Source of the DNA: Whalleya microplaca
Taxonomy: Eukaryota; Ascomycota; Sordariomycetes; Xylariales; Xylariaceae
Reading direction: 5' to 3'
DNA length: 64,000 nucleotides
NCBI GenBank assembly: GCA_022497155.1
Contig: MU385730.1
Span: forward strand, 558,001-622,000
Notes under the pieces: generated by a model
Seen by the model: only the letters and a program-made list of their open reading frames with translations
The model's database searches: none
What the model was told of the DNA's origin: nothing
Part shown: positions 28,709-39,803 of the stretch, one piece after another
How positions within the stretch are numbered: position 1 is the stretch's first letter
Layout of the letters: each line of letters opens with the position of its first letter
Program-made: the position numbers and the translations under genes

Positions 28709-29887
28709 TTAAGTCCCAACCCCGCCGCCGCCGCCGCCACCTCCGTTCTCCTGCAAAATAATGCACGGCCGCCTAGCCCACATGCCCAACACGGTGGCCT
28801 GGTCGGCGCTCGCCTCCTTCTCGCCGGGCAGCTCGGTGTCGCACATGCTCAGGGCGCGGAGGATCTGGCGGTCGATGCGGTCGAGGTCGGGGTCCTCGAA
28901 CTCGCCCTTGAGGAACTCGGCGAGGCGCTGGGCGGGCAGGGCGGCGGCGCGCGCGAGCCGGCCGATGGCGCCGCGCACGCCCATGTTGTTCTCGCGCTGC
29001 CAGCGGCGGTACGAGGCCATGGTGTGCATGTCGCCGGGCGGCGTGACGGGGTGGTTGTGGTGCGGGTGCAGGATCTCGACGAACCAGTGGTCGCCCTCGC
29101 GCTTGAGGCGGCGGATGCAGGCTCGCCAGGGACACCCGCACTTGCGGCTCTCGCGGTTGCGCTCGCCCCGGCTCTGGCTCACGAACTCGTTGCCGCCCCG
29201 GTCGCAGCTGAAGTCCTTGCGCGTGATCGACCCCGCCGGGTTGTACTGCCCCGACGGCAGCTTCTCCTTCACCGTCCGCTTCTGCGACACCCCGTACCCC
29301 GACGTGAACACGTGCAGCTGCAGGTTGAACACCGCGTCCTCCAGCGTGTAGTACGGCCCCCGGCTGAACGGGTGCGGGGCCGCCGGTGGGTGCGGCGTCT
29401 CGGCGCGTGGCCGCTTGCGCGGGCGGCCGCCGCGCCCGCGGGGTGGCGTGGTGGTTGTGGGCGGGCCGTTGATCTGGATCGGCATGTTGGCGTTGAGGTC
29501 TGCGTTGGCATCGTTGGTGACGACGGCGGCAGCAGCGGCGGCAGCGGCAGCATTCTGGTGTTTTGCGGCGCTGAGGGGGGTTGACGACGATAAGGGGAGC
29601 TGCGGCGGGGAAGGGGGAGATGTTAGATCTGAGCTCGAGGTGGCGGTTGGAAGGGTGGTTTGTCGTTGTGCTTGTGCTTGGGCTTGCTGAAGATGATGTT
29701 GATGTTGATGTTGGGGTTGTGAATAGGGATTCGTGTGAGGCTGAGGGGCAATGGATTGGAATGTGAATTGTTGTTGGCGTTGATGCTGGTGTTGCTGGTG
29801 TTGCTGCTGCTGTTGTTGCTGGTGCTGGTGCTGTTGCTGGTTGAATTGTTGCAGGGGCGTCAGCGAGTTATACTGTGACGAGGCCAT
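28709..29887 (-). CDS. AT-hook / FAR1-like DNA-binding protein
   Basis: The single exon is read from the ATG at 29887, giving 392 residues; the frame stays open upstream to 30139, but that part looks like leader. Residues 1-110 are Gln/His-rich, with poly-Q/H and poly-Ala tracts. An AT-hook (PRGRGGRPRKRPR) lies near 150-165. The next 120 residues have the Cys/His pattern of FAR1/WRKY-GCM1 zinc domains: TLEDAVFNLQLHVFTSGYGV, KDFSCDRGG, RKCGCPWRA, WFVEILHPHHNHP. This domain is shared with MULE transposase-derived regulators. No transposase catalytic core follows. The C-terminus ends in a Gly run. Probably a nuclear DNA-binding regulator; targets are unknown. Confidence 0.82.
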   Translation of the reverse strand: MASSQYNSLTPLQQFNQQQHQHQQQQQQQHQQHQHQRQQQFTFQSIAPQPHTNPYSQPQHQHQHHLQQAQAQAQRQTTLPTATSSSDLTSPPSPPQLPLSSSTPLSAAKHQNAAAAAAAAAVVTNDANADLNANMPIQINGPPTTTTPPRGRGGRPRKRPRAETPHPPAAPHPFSRGPYYTLEDAVFNLQLHVFTSGYGVSQKRTVKEKLPSGQYNPAGSITRKDFSCDRGGNEFVSQSRGERNRESRKCGCPWRACIRRLKREGDHWFVEILHPHHNHPVTPPGDMHTMASYRRWQRENNMGVRGAIGRLARAAALPAQRLAEFLKGEFEDPDLDRIDRQILRALSMCDTELPGEKEASADQATVLGMWARRPCIILQENGGGGGGGGVGT

Positions 29888-30415
29888 TTCGTTTGTAGTT
29901 TGGCTCTTGTTACCCCGAATCCAATTGACCGTCTGTGTAGTGGATGGAGGATTGGATCGATCGGTCGTTTGACCGTATATGTAAAGCGCAGGGAACAAAG
30001 GAGGTTGGATGGATCTCAGTTCCCGCGACTCCACCTCCCGTCTGTTTAACCCCGGATGCTTATGGAGATATCGCTCGATATGCAATAACCTTCTTTTTAT
30101 GCATTCTTCTGATGACACCGGTAACATGAGTCTCACCATCTCTCACCATGAGTTTCAATTCATAATAGCTGTATTCAAACAGAGCAACTCTGAAGAGCAT
30201 TACAATACTAAGGCTAGGTATTTATACTCATAACACTCGTATCATGACACTTCATCGAATGAACACACACACACACACATATATATAGTACATCAACTGG
30301 GAACTTTTTATTCATTCAACACCGCGCTATGCGTATCCAACTGCAATGCGATGCGATGCGATGCGATGCGATGCGCTATGCAAATGCTCCCTTATGTAAC
30401 ACGACATCCATCTAC
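29888..30415. other. Upstream region of the FAR1-like gene
   Basis: 528 bp containing the leader and promoter of the minus-strand FAR1-like gene and the 3' flank of the fusion gene. It includes an AC microsatellite near 30263-30278 and an (ATGCG)6 array at 30346-30375. Confidence 0.55.
30346..30375. repeat. (ATGCG)6 minisatellite
   Basis: Six perfect ATGCG units lie just downstream of the stop codon of the isochorismatase-AlkB-GST gene. Confidence 0.95.
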
Positions 30416-33400
30416 TTATCTAGATTCCTCCTTGTCTCCCGGCTCCTCCCTGTTCTCCGGTGACTTCTTACTAGACTCATCACCTTTAGTCGCACCACCA
30501 CCAGCACCACCAGCAGTAGCAGTAGCAGCGGTATTCGTATCCCGCGCCTGCGCCGCCTCGCCGCGCATCAAGAACTTCGCAACCGCCTCCCTCGACTTCA
30601 CACGTTCGTAGTACATCCTCAGGTTCTCAAAGCTGTTGTTCCCCTTTTCCGCTACCGTTGTCGGGTCAGGGTCATCGCCGTGCTTCTTCTGATAGATATC
30701 GTGCAGCACAGGCCAGACGGCGAAGTCGGCCAGGCTCAGACCCGGGCCGGCGATGAACTCGGCCTCGCCCGCGTACGCGTCCCAGATGGCCAGCTCGCGC
30801 GTCAGCGTCGGGCTCGCGCGGTGCTTGTCCAGCAGGCTCAGGCCCTGCTGGAAGCGCGAGAACTGCCTGGCGAGGGCCGCCTGGGACGGGGACGGGGACG
30901 AGGATGAAGAAGACGGGTCGTCGTCGTCTCGCGCCTTCCCGTAGACCCTGTCGAGGTACATCATGATGGCGATGTCGCCCTGCACCGTCGTCTTCGCGAG
31001 GTCGTTGTCGACGAATTTGATGGGCAGGTCCTCCGGCACCGCCGCGGCGTCGCGGGCGGCTTTCCCGTCCTTCCAGTTGAACAGGGGACTCATGCTGCCC
31101 CGGGCGTAGCTGATCCCGTACTCGGCCAGCATGAGCTGGATGCGCATGTTCACTATGGGGTCTACGGAGAGGAACAGCCTCTGTGCGGCACTGATGTGCA
31201 GCACATCAAAGCCCGCGCCGTAGCATTCGTCCCAGTCGAATTCCGTGCTCTGGTTCTCCCGCCCGAACGCCTGCAGCATCTTAACTGCTTCGTCCGTTTG
31301 GCCGTTGATCACCTCGTGCGCCCCGGCCTGGCTCTTTGACCGGGCGCCCTGTCCCCATATCCGCTGGTTATCTCGGTCTAGGAACGTACCGATGTGTCTA
31401 AAGGTCAGAGAGATGCGCCCACCGTCGTAGGCGCGCTCGGCGGCCGATTTCTCGCGCTCTAACCGTTTGTCCTGCCGGATAGCGTGGAGCCAGCGCATGT
31501 TAGTGGCTAGTCCCATCTGGCATAACGAGTTGTGCGGCAGGTGTGCTCGCTGCACCTGGCGTTTGAGCTCCTCGGGCGAGGGCTCCGCGTTCTCCCCCGC
31601 GTCCGCGGCTGCTATCGTCTTGGACTTTGGCTGCCGCTTCGTGCGTAAGGTCATGGTTCGTTCCGCGCCCAGACTAACATTGGCAATGTAGCTACCTCGA
31701 GCGATGTCTAGCGTCTTGTCGCTGTGTTCCGAGATGTAATCGGTGCCGTCACGGTAGAATTGTATCAAGACGTGATTCAGAGGGTGGCCTAGCCGCTCCT
31801 CTATCACACCTCTGATCTCCTGTACTGTAGGCGAAAACGGCAATAACGGTGGCGATTCGTCTGCTGGGTGACGATAGACTGGCTTCGTCCCGTCTTCGTC
31901 CACTTGGCCTTGGACAGCAACGAGTCTGGGAACTTCGCCACCTTGATGTGACATCCGCTGCCATCGCACTTCATCTCGTATCCTCTCAAAGACATTATCC
32001 GAGAGCGGTGCTGGTAGGACGTCATAGATGACTTTAGTATCACCCTCACACAGAGGTTCGCTCTCACTCGGTCTTATATTCTGCGGCTCCATTCTGTTAT
32101 TATTACTCTCACCTTCTGTACTTGAAACTTTGATTGATTCTTCTTCTCGCCTTGGCTGTGGGTCGTCGGCCGCCCTACTTATGAGTCTTGGCTCTTTATT
32201 GGATGAGTCAGACAATGCCTTTGACTCAGGATTGGTTTTTTTAGCCAGCGATGATGATTCGTCGTCATCCGGTCGGATCGGATCGGCGCCTGCTTTGTGT
32301 TCTTTATCTGGTTGTGGTGCTATCGTTGAAGTGTCGTGCGAAACAAGCGCATTCATCGAGTGATCCTGGGCTGCTAGTGGCGATAATTGACTACTACCCC
32401 GCGAAGTGGCTTGTGCGTCCCTGTCCCCATCGGTCGGTGACGAGCCGACAACGTCTTCTGGTTCTGGTTCTGGTCGCGTCGCGTCAGATTTCACGATAGA
32501 CGGCGCGGTTTCCGGTACTTGGTCGCTCTTCTCCTGTTCGTGTTCCTTAGCTATCACCACGGGTTGAAGCGGCTGTGCTGGATCTTGCGTAGGTGCTTGA
32601 AGGTCGGGCTTATCGGCTGCAGGTTCACCACTTAGTGCCAAATTTTCAAGAGACGATTGGATTTTTGAGGTCGGGGACGCTGCGGTACCGTCCTCTTCCT
32701 CGGCACGACGTACGGTAGGTAACCTGCCACCCGAACCCACCGCGGGCCTATGATCCGGCCGCTTGGAGGCCACCTTCGGTTTGGCCGGCTTGAAGGACCC
32801 CAGAACCGCTTCTGCCGTCAAGACGTCACAGCCCGTCGTATCCGCGATCCGCTTGACGGCGCAGCGGTGACGCATCATACTCTGGAAGCCACAGCAGTCG
32901 TCGACGATAGTGATGGTATACCCATGGCTGGCAGCCTCGACAGCGGTGGCCATAATGCTGATATTGGTCATGCATCCGCAGATGAACAGCTCCGTGACAA
33001 ATCTCATCCGTAGCAACCGGAGCAGCTGCTCCGATCTAAAAGCTGAGTAGTAAGTCTTGACGAGCGAATAGTCCTTAGGTCCAACAGCATTTGCCACGGT
33101 TGGGTGCATCTCTATCCCCGGGGTGCCCGGCCGCACGCATTTGGGCTGTTTCGGACTTTCTTGCGTTAGGAAAGCCTCTGGACACTCGGTGGTCTGGGCT
33201 ATCTGGGGCGAGGCATGCCGCCGCCGGCCTCGGGCGATATCTGACGAGCGTATTTGCGCTGGTCTATCCGAGGTCAGGACCTGCTCGTCCTGGAGAGATC
33301 GCGACTTGTCAAACTGGCTGCACACCCAGATGACGTCGCCGCCGCTCTGGCGGAAGTCCGTTGCCAGGTCCGCCAGCCGTTCCGGGAGGTCCAGGGGGAT

Positions 33401-33511
33401 CTTGATAGGCAGGGCGCCCTCCTCGGCTAGAAAGTCGTTCTGAGCATCGATCACGATCAGAGCCCTACGAGTAGTCAAGGACGGGAGAAGCGTCTTGTCT
33501 ATGGGAAACAT
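30416..33511 (-). CDS. Three-domain fusion: isochorismatase-like, AlkB dioxygenase, GST-like
   Basis: One uninterrupted exon of 1031 residues from the ATG at 33511. The frame is open to 33676, but MFPIDKTLLPSL begins the domain. Residues 12-245 are an isochorismatase-like hydrolase: ALIVIDAQNDFL (Asp22), LVKTYY (Lys152) and CGCMTNIS. At the usual catalytic Cys position there is Ser185, as in isochorismatases rather than nicotinamidases. Residues 245-490 are disordered and acidic. Residues 495-715 are an AlkB-type 2-oxoglutarate/Fe(II) dioxygenase with HSD (596-598), WLH (His676) and RISLTFR (699-705), so metal and substrate ligands are present. Residues 774-990 are GST-like, with DNDLAKTTVQGDIAIMMYL and AGPGLSLADFAVWP. 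The C-terminal 40 residues are low complexity. The combination suggests repair or demethylation of alkylated nucleic acid linked to small-molecule or thiol chemistry; the true substrate is unknown. Confidence 0.88.
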   Translation of the reverse strand: MFPIDKTLLPSLTTRRALIVIDAQNDFLAEEGALPIKIPLDLPERLADLATDFRQSGGDVIWVCSQFDKSRSLQDEQVLTSDRPAQIRSSDIARGRRRHASPQIAQTTECPEAFLTQESPKQPKCVRPGTPGIEMHPTVANAVGPKDYSLVKTYYSAFRSEQLLRLLRMRFVTELFICGCMTNISIMATAVEAASHGYTITIVDDCCGFQSMMRHRCAVKRIADTTGCDVLTAEAVLGSFKPAKPKVASKRPDHRPAVGSGGRLPTVRRAEEEDGTAASPTSKIQSSLENLALSGEPAADKPDLQAPTQDPAQPLQPVVIAKEHEQEKSDQVPETAPSIVKSDATRPEPEPEDVVGSSPTDGDRDAQATSRGSSQLSPLAAQDHSMNALVSHDTSTIAPQPDKEHKAGADPIRPDDDESSSLAKKTNPESKALSDSSNKEPRLISRAADDPQPRREEESIKVSSTEGESNNNRMEPQNIRPSESEPLCEGDTKVIYDVLPAPLSDNVFERIRDEVRWQRMSHQGGEVPRLVAVQGQVDEDGTKPVYRHPADESPPLLPFSPTVQEIRGVIEERLGHPLNHVLIQFYRDGTDYISEHSDKTLDIARGSYIANVSLGAERTMTLRTKRQPKSKTIAAADAGENAEPSPEELKRQVQRAHLPHNSLCQMGLATNMRWLHAIRQDKRLEREKSAAERAYDGGRISLTFRHIGTFLDRDNQRIWGQGARSKSQAGAHEVINGQTDEAVKMLQAFGRENQSTEFDWDECYGAGFDVLHISAAQRLFLSVDPIVNMRIQLMLAEYGISYARGSMSPLFNWKDGKAARDAAAVPEDLPIKFVDNDLAKTTVQGDIAIMMYLDRVYGKARDDDDPSSSSSSPSPSQAALARQFSRFQQGLSLLDKHRASPTLTRELAIWDAYAGEAEFIAGPGLSLADFAVWPVLHDIYQKKHGDDPDPTTVAEKGNNSFENLRMYYERVKSREAVAKFLMRGEAAQARDTNTAATATAGGAGGGATKGDESSKKSPENREEPGDKEESR

Positions 33512-38399: not shown

Positions 38400-39803
38400 T
38401 CAAGACGACGTCCCATCATCCAGTTGATCCATCTCGCCCAACTGCCGATTGATCTCACCGAAGCTGGGTCGCTCGGGACCGACCGGGGAGGAGCATCGTC
38501 GATGCAGGGCAGCCAGCCGCATCGAGACCCTGAGCTCCTCCTCGCTAAAGCGCGGCTTCATGAGGGACCACACGTCCTCGATCAGGTGCGCGAAGGCCAG
38601 CGCCTCGAGCTGCTCCACCCTCCCGTAGTGCTGCTTCTGTTCCTTCTCCTGCTCCTGCTTATCATACACGGACGCGGCGCCGAAGTCGCCCAGGAGCGCG
38701 TGCCCGTCGTCGCTGAAGAGCACGTTGTGCGCGTACAGGTCACCGTGCGCCACGCCGCGGGCATGCAGATGGCCCACGGCGGCCGCGACGCCCCTCAGGA
38801 TGCCCAGGCCCTGGCGCGTGGTCAGCGCGGCGGCGCCGGGCGCGAAGCGGTCGCGCGTGCAGGTCTGTAGGGACGGCGGCTGGCCCAGGGTCCGGTAGCG
38901 GCTGCTGGGGATCAGCTGCATGACGAGGCCTTCCCGGCGGTCCGGGTGGTCGCGGATCTTGCCCAGGGGGTCGATGAGGTTCGCGTGCGGGCCGGCGCGC
39001 AGGCACGCGCGCATCTCGTCCGTCGGTGTCCCGTCGCTCGTCACGTCGCCCTTGAACAGCTTGATGGCGACCTCCCTGTGCGCGCGGTCGATCCCGTTCC
39101 AGTGGCCCTTGGAGATGATGCCCGAGGCGCCCTCGCCGAGGAGGTGGTGCACGTCGAGGTCGGCCCAGCTCACGTCCGCGAGACGGCTCGACGGGGTATC
39201 TGTGGCGTGTGACTCGTCATCATGCTTGGGTACAGCTGCGGCACAGGGGTTGCCGGCGAAGGAGAGGAAGGCGAGCTCCGGCAGCTCAAACAGCCAGCCG
39301 GGCAGTTCTGCAATGCGATTGGCCGAGAGCCGCAGCAAGCCGAGCTTCTTACACGCTGCCATTTCGTCTGGCAGGCTACGCAGCTTGTTACCGGACAACA
39401 TGCATTTCTGGAGGCGCGCGCACTGGCCGATGCTCTTGGGGAGCGATTCGATCTCGTTGTTAGTCAGGATCAGCCAGCGCAGCTTGGGTGGCAGAGAGTT
39501 CTCCGGGACCTCGGCCATCCGGTTGCCTCGAAAGGCGACCATCTCGAGCTCGGGACATTGTGCAAGCTCCTTGGGGAAGACGGAGAAGTTGCAGTTGGAG
39601 AATAAGGCGATCTTGAGCTTCTCCAGGCGGCCGAAGTCTTCTGGTAAGGTCGATAGGCCGGTGCCAGAGAGGTCGAGGTGCTCCAGGGTTTCAGCCGCAT
39701 CGAAGATTTCGGTAGGAAAGTGGCTTAGGGGCTTCGATATGTTCAGCTTTGTAGTAGGGCTCAGCGCCTCCCCGTTAGGAACCAGGTTTGCAGGTAGATG
39801 CAT
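38400..39803 (-). CDS. Leucine-rich-repeat protein kinase
   Basis: A single exon encodes 467 residues. Residues 20-190 form about seven LRRs of the LxxLxLxxNxLxxLP type (LEHLDLSGTGLSTLPEDF, LRWLILTNNEIESLP, LGLLRLSANRIAELP). A kinase domain follows: glycine loop GEGASG (223-228), ATP-binding Lys248 in VAIKLF, catalytic loop HGDLYAHN (353-360) and DFG (373-375). The HRD Arg is Gly, so this is a non-RD kinase that probably needs no activation-loop phosphorylation. There is no signal peptide or transmembrane helix, so it is cytoplasmic, unlike plant receptor kinases. The kinase C-lobe is short and ends close to the stop codon. The substrate is unknown. Confidence 0.85.
   Translation of the reverse strand: MHLPANLVPNGEALSPTTKLNISKPLSHFPTEIFDAAETLEHLDLSGTGLSTLPEDFGRLEKLKIALFSNCNFSVFPKELAQCPELEMVAFRGNRMAEVPENSLPPKLRWLILTNNEIESLPKSIGQCARLQKCMLSGNKLRSLPDEMAACKKLGLLRLSANRIAELPGWLFELPELAFLSFAGNPCAAAVPKHDDESHATDTPSSRLADVSWADLDVHHLLGEGASGIISKGHWNGIDRAHREVAIKLFKGDVTSDGTPTDEMRACLRAGPHANLIDPLGKIRDHPDRREGLVMQLIPSSRYRTLGQPPSLQTCTRDRFAPGAAALTTRQGLGILRGVAAAVGHLHARGVAHGDLYAHNVLFSDDGHALLGDFGAASVYDKQEQEKEQKQHYGRVEQLEALAFAHLIEDVWSLMKPRFSEEELRVSMRLAALHRRCSSPVGPERPSFGEINRQLGEMDQLDDGTSS

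Follow-up and report, generated by a model that had tools for sequence, protein, structure and literature searches.

The available text of PMC10826363 describes five AlkB-type genes in Fusarium graminearum. One of them, ALKBH2 (FGRRES_09872), encodes 933 residues, has human ALKBH3 and Arabidopsis ALKBH2 as close relatives and shows a strong rise in expression in ascospore formation; neither 'isochorismatase' nor 'GST' (glutathione transferase) occurs as a word in its main text, as available. An AlkB protein of 350 residues was identified elsewhere through its similarity to human ALKBH5 (PMC11708048, available part), and the isochorismatase-fold proteins SmEntB, VibB, EntB and PhzD are dimers (PMC12210187, available part). 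Here we analyze a gene of Whalleya microplaca, located on a stretch of 64,000 nucleotides (hereafter, the window; contig MU385730.1, positions 558,001 to 622,000, GenBank assembly GCA_022497155.1), whose predicted product combines an isochorismatase-like domain, an AlkB domain and a GST fold in a single polypeptide. Judging from the size and clade given for it in the available text of PMC10826363, F. graminearum ALKBH2 is probably an orthologue of this protein.

An earlier note on this DNA, made from its letters alone, had placed three enzyme folds in one 1031-residue frame. The frame reads uninterrupted from ATG to stop at the coordinates, strand and length given there, and Asp22, Lys152, Ser185, His596, Asp598, His676 and the motifs RISLTFR (residues 699-705) and SLADFAVWP (residues 926-934) all lie at the positions claimed. 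Domain searches with Pfam recovered all three folds above the corresponding gathering cut-offs: Isochorismatase (17-234, expectation value [E] 5.5e-27), 2OG-FeII_Oxy_2 (494-705, E 4.7e-34), PF24470 Thiored_Isochorism (774-859, E 3.3e-37, 127.1 bits against a cut-off of 35), GST_C_3 (901-981, E 8.2e-6) and GST_C_2 (877-939, E 1.4e-5), the last barely exceeding its threshold. Models of the isochorismatase, AlkB and thioredoxin-like/GST domains are confident. The gene and its parts are arranged as follows:

30416..33511, minus strand: single-exon coding sequence running from ATG through 1031 codons to a stop, 3.1 kb in all and open across both joints
32810..33463, minus strand: isochorismatase-like domain, residues 17-234, Cys-free, with Asp22, Lys152 and Ser185 (Pfam)
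32033..32809, minus strand: linker of low conservation, residues 235-493 (gap between Pfam borders)
31397..32032, minus strand: AlkB-type 2-oxoglutarate/Fe(II) oxygenase, residues 494-705, with His596, Asp598, His676, Arg699 and Arg705
31193..31396, minus strand: conserved AlkB C-terminal extension (the bridge), residues 706-773 (identity, profile match)
30935..31192, minus strand: thioredoxin-like first half of the GST fold, residues 774-859 (PF24470)
30569..30883, minus strand: C-terminal helical half of the GST fold with SLADFAVWP, residues 877-981 (Pfam GST_C_3 and GST_C_2)
30416..30556, minus strand: non-conserved C-terminal tail, residues 986-1031 and stop (coverage)

A search with the whole protein returned 1312 matches and a search with an AlkB paralogue returned 688; the best 120 of each were examined, and their parts and order were assigned with our own profiles, which were built partly from rows they were then run on. 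The isochorismatase, AlkB, bridge and GST parts follow each other in the same order in 119 of the best 120 whole-protein matches, query included, P0051 being the lone protein without the isochorismatase part. The 119 other homologues are annotated as one protein each (611-1113 residues, median 953), the closest sharing 62% identity over 95% of the query, and among the matches listed there are many Xylariales as well as Colletotrichum, Microdochium and Pestalotiopsis. The non-conserved tail has a median coverage of 15% in these homologues. The earlier note had proposed that an order shared between several genera, together with retention of every ligand, would support a real system. The common order is borne out in Xylariales, Colletotrichum and others, and the ligands are kept for the AlkB residues and the isochorismatase Asp and Lys, but not for the Cys position, which is never Cys. 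These data support a real, single-gene, conserved three-domain protein; the W. microplaca copy is an unremarkable orthologue with a known architecture.

Databases already know this architecture, because a Pfam family, PF24470 Thiored_Isochorism, is named for it and accompanies PF00857 and PF13532. Homologue records carry the names 'isochorismatase' or 'DNA oxidative demethylase ALKBH2', which hide one half or the other of the fusion. No paper describing the fusion by title or opening abstract was found, a scope that leaves room for passing mention, and as far as these searches go the fusion is known to databases and undescribed in print. This outcome agrees with the earlier note, which could name no characterized protein with this order, even though a Pfam family had already been named for it.

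The AlkB domain provides the firmest functional indication. Its HxD...H iron triad (His596, Asp598, His676) is identical in all 119 listed homologues and in all 25 rows chosen from the best 120 of the 688 paralogue-search matches. In AlkB enzymes, two 2-oxoglutarate-binding arginines are supplied by an RxNxTxR motif; the corresponding Arg699 and Arg705 are present in all 144 proteins of these two samples, and the Asn position of the motif is Ser in the same 144. The nearest solved relatives, by both sequence and fold, are ALKBH2 and ALKBH3; among the Foldseek matches ALKBH5 comes far down, at rank 40. Dealkylation is the best-supported core function because the iron and 2-oxoglutarate ligands are invariant and ALKBH2 and ALKBH3 are the nearest relatives, and by analogy with this family the domain probably dealkylates nucleic acid.

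The segments on either side of the AlkB domain differ markedly. The first linker, 259 residues by Pfam borders, is rich in Ser, Pro and Ala (residues 245-484, with 44 Asp+Glu against 29 Lys+Arg); its median identity in the 119 homologues is 27% (residues 240-480) and its length ranges from 22 to 351 residues, with a median of 212. The bridge (residues 706-773) had been presented earlier as a second linker, a role ruled out by its near-AlkB conservation: the median identity is 69%, compared to 72% for the AlkB domain. The bridge profile matches all 240 listed proteins (the best 120 of each search), and, given this identity and its presence at the C-terminal end of AlkB-only proteins, we count it as part of the AlkB domain.

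Two other AlkB-type frames are present in the same genome. One (L002:1207-2463, contig C9) encodes a further AlkB of the ALKBH2/3 type that shares the bridge but has neither an isochorismatase nor a GST part; its final 381 residues constitute the extremely diverged W. microplaca P0121, which has a very long branch and an unsure placement in the tree described below. The other (L004, contig C8; about 307 codons) carries RINITFR, compared to RISLTFR in the fusion family.

Residue counts for the isochorismatase-like domain refer to the 118 of the 119 other homologues that carry it. Asp22, Lys152, Tyr155, Ser156 and Phe158 are identical in all 118, and Asp22 is lost in a Phyllosticta homologue. 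The nucleophile position, 185, is occupied by Gly in 90 and by Ser in 28, as in the window protein, and by Cys in none; Ser185, previously regarded as an odd replacement of Cys, is hence one of the two states of a family that is Cys-free as listed. Nicotinamidase-type hydrolases rely on a Cys nucleophile, and an activity of this type was rejected on the 0/118 count, even though such enzymes score near the top in both sequence and fold comparisons. When aligned to true isochorismatases, the domain presents Ser65 at the carboxylate-binding Gln and Gln77 at the Arg; Arg71, kept in 117 of 118, is not placed by the alignment at the ring-carboxylate Arg. The substrate is probably not isochorismate.

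None of the NCBIfam equivalogs listed reached its cut-off in the eight proteins scanned, and the best match, PRK11440 (E 2.4e-11), which corresponds to YecD, scored 43.9 bits where 195 are required. A search with the domain alone, reaching only relatives that share short exact words, yielded 10 matches among 883 candidates. One was a bacterial protein (25% identity) and the other nine were short gene models or fragments of fungal type, and no stand-alone kin informative on the substrate was found among these candidates. At the sensitivity of this search, the domain appears to occur almost only in the fusion. Near-invariant DCCG (206-208) and TGC (226-228) motifs are also present in the domain, with Cys206 in 118/118 and Cys207 in 117/118.

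In GSTs, the glutamyl group of glutathione is anchored by a Glu/Gln-Ser/Thr pair, and the thioredoxin-like half contains a cis-Pro. The fusion family keeps the GST fold and the C-terminal S/TxxD box, with Asp929 in all 119 homologues. Residues 845-846 are Gly followed by Glu, Gln or Asp in 105 of the 119, and by alignment none has Ser or Thr at 846. The aligned cis-Pro position, 831, is I, V, L, M or D and never Pro in the 119, with Pro found one residue earlier in 92. Pfam GST_N models do not match the window protein at E <= 1, and matches of the GST region to PDB sequences are weak (best E 0.034). Glutathione transferase activity was not favored, the anchor being absent by alignment, and the GST fold is likely to be structural, without the usual glutathione binding. 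Two Serendipita strains (P0153 and P0176) present AlkB joined to a GST whose N-terminal half fits canonical GST_N models and retains Glu-Ser; this AlkB-GST fusion may be active or independent. S. indica P0188 shows AlkB alone.

Partial architectures appear in the best 120 of the 688 paralogue-search matches, which comprise 78 proteins with AlkB and bridge only, 38 with AlkB and GST (some with GST fragments only), three with isochorismatase and AlkB, and Penicillium P0220, an isochorismatase-AlkB protein that ends after the start of the GST part. Among the matches listed, Macroventuria and Didymella have AlkB-GST without isochorismatase; in Exophiala and in Phyllosticta, the latter from models marked partial, isochorismatase is joined to AlkB. 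The absence of parts from these homologues may reflect gene-model faults. A tree was built quickly from the AlkB and bridge segments of 85 proteins hand-chosen among 240; in it, the 23 chosen three-domain proteins fall within one supported set (97) of 31 rows that also holds 8 rows without the isochorismatase part. Labels change at least 10 times for isochorismatase and at least 8 times for GST, on a tree where metagenome predictions and models labelled 'partial' account for many rows and P0236, lacking the domain, is sister to P0111, which has it. Taken at face value, these changes would point to repeated gain or loss, and we draw no conclusion from them.

Taken together, the data favor, by a modest degree of belief, a protein in which an ALKBH2/3-type dealkylase is accompanied by a hydrolase/lyase-like domain devoid of the Cys and by a GST fold with a structural role. 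The Fe(II)/2-oxoglutarate dioxygenase would strip alkyl groups from nucleic acid, acting in repair on N-alkylated bases such as 1-methyladenine or 3-methylcytosine, and the GST fold that follows the conserved bridge would serve as a structural or docking module. On its long and variable tether, the N-terminal domain would act as a Cys-free hydrolase or lyase, with chemistry performed by Asp22 and Lys152 and with the main-chain amide of Gly/Ser185 offered to a carboxylate, by analogy with SmEntB, VibB and PhzD. We incline slightly to the view that this domain is still catalytically active. It is a good deal less probable that it acts on something produced by the AlkB reaction, or by the same stress, for instance a base or nucleotide adduct of the enol-ether, enamine or aldehyde type, with the GST as scaffold; such a protein would join nucleic-acid dealkylation to a second clean-up reaction in one polypeptide.

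The alternative that must be weighed most seriously is that the isochorismatase domain is a pseudo-enzyme and oligomerization scaffold, with the tether allowing several AlkB modules to share one nucleic-acid target. Isochorismatase folds form dimers, the Cys nucleophile is absent throughout a family whose closest matches include Cys hydrolases, and a Phyllosticta homologue has dispensed with Asp22; yet true isochorismatases are active though Cys-free, and five residues identical in 118 of 118 proteins are more than a scaffold alone demands. We therefore rate this as a tenable but doubtful explanation. That the substrate is RNA (N6-methyladenosine [m6A] or other messenger RNA marks) rather than damaged DNA, the protein being an epitranscriptomic eraser, appears unlikely: the probable F. 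graminearum orthologue is listed as a putative m6A eraser and has the ascospore-stage rise noted above, but the available text of PMC10826363 also places it close to alkylation-repair enzymes, and the best sequence and fold matches of the window protein itself are ALKBH2 and ALKBH3, with ALKBH5 well behind in the Foldseek ranking.

The earlier note speculated that repair is coupled to detoxification; a version of this that depends on glutathione and clears the alkylating agent or released formaldehyde is improbable. A GST fold does lie beside a dealkylase, and the Serendipita proteins pair AlkB with a GST that has a canonical N-terminal domain, but detoxification by glutathione is unsupported because the anchoring Ser/Thr is missing by alignment in 119 of 119 homologues, and the window protein has no GST_N match at E 1 or better. 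The notion that two or three separate transcripts appear joined merely through an open frame deserves almost no credence. Three named records (P0242, P0243 and P0249), from the nine fungal-like matches to this domain, annotate the isochorismatase part alone and P0051 lacks it, but the frame crosses both joints free of stops, and a chance or mis-joined frame was rejected on the order shared by 119 of the best 120 predicted proteins.

In many filamentous ascomycetes, the matches listed ranging from Xylariales to Colletotrichum, a dioxygenase of the alkylation-repair type has a Cys-free hydrolase-like domain as its permanent partner, and the key question is whether this domain is an enzyme, and on what substrate. 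If active, it would give nucleic-acid dealkylation a second, dedicated activity alongside; if inactive, the protein would clearly illustrate how enzyme folds can be turned into a scaffold for a repair enzyme.

Two other frames in the window, both on the minus strand, have recognizable domains. Adjoining the fusion gene, 28709-30139 encodes a FAR1 DNA-binding domain (Pfam E 9.8e-8) and a Gln/His-rich stretch. In 38400-39803, leucine-rich repeats precede a protein kinase domain within a single frame, an arrangement more familiar in plants.

Compared with known systems, the N-terminal domain lies closest, by fold and sequence score, to YecD and to nicotinamidases and biuret-type Cys hydrolases, the Cys of the latter being absent in the fusion family. 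E. coli YecD (PDB 1j2r) is the best Foldseek match (E 3.2e-11) and likewise has Gly at the nucleophile position (TNIG), but it is a stand-alone protein, and its NCBIfam model is named only 'hydrolase'. EntB, VibB and PhzD also lack the Cys, with Gly where the fusion family has Gly or Ser; their sequence match is weaker than that of the Cys hydrolases, and their ring-carboxylate Gln/Arg have no clearly recognizable counterpart in the fusion domain. At the other end of the protein, the glutathione-anchoring motif of fungal Ure2p-class glutathione transferases is absent. The solved chains of human ALKBH2 and ALKBH3 cover one domain, to which the fusion adds a conserved bridge and two domains, and these enzymes have the canonical RxNxTxR Asn in place of the fusion's Ser. 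The ALKBH2/3-type proteins of F. graminearum measure 933, 443 and 326 residues in the available text of PMC10826363, a size pattern similar to that of the three in W. microplaca, with 1031 and 381 (P0121) residues and about 307 codons (L004). Finally, fungal proteins of the PF24470 type have the same domains in the same order as the window protein, with no difference of substance.
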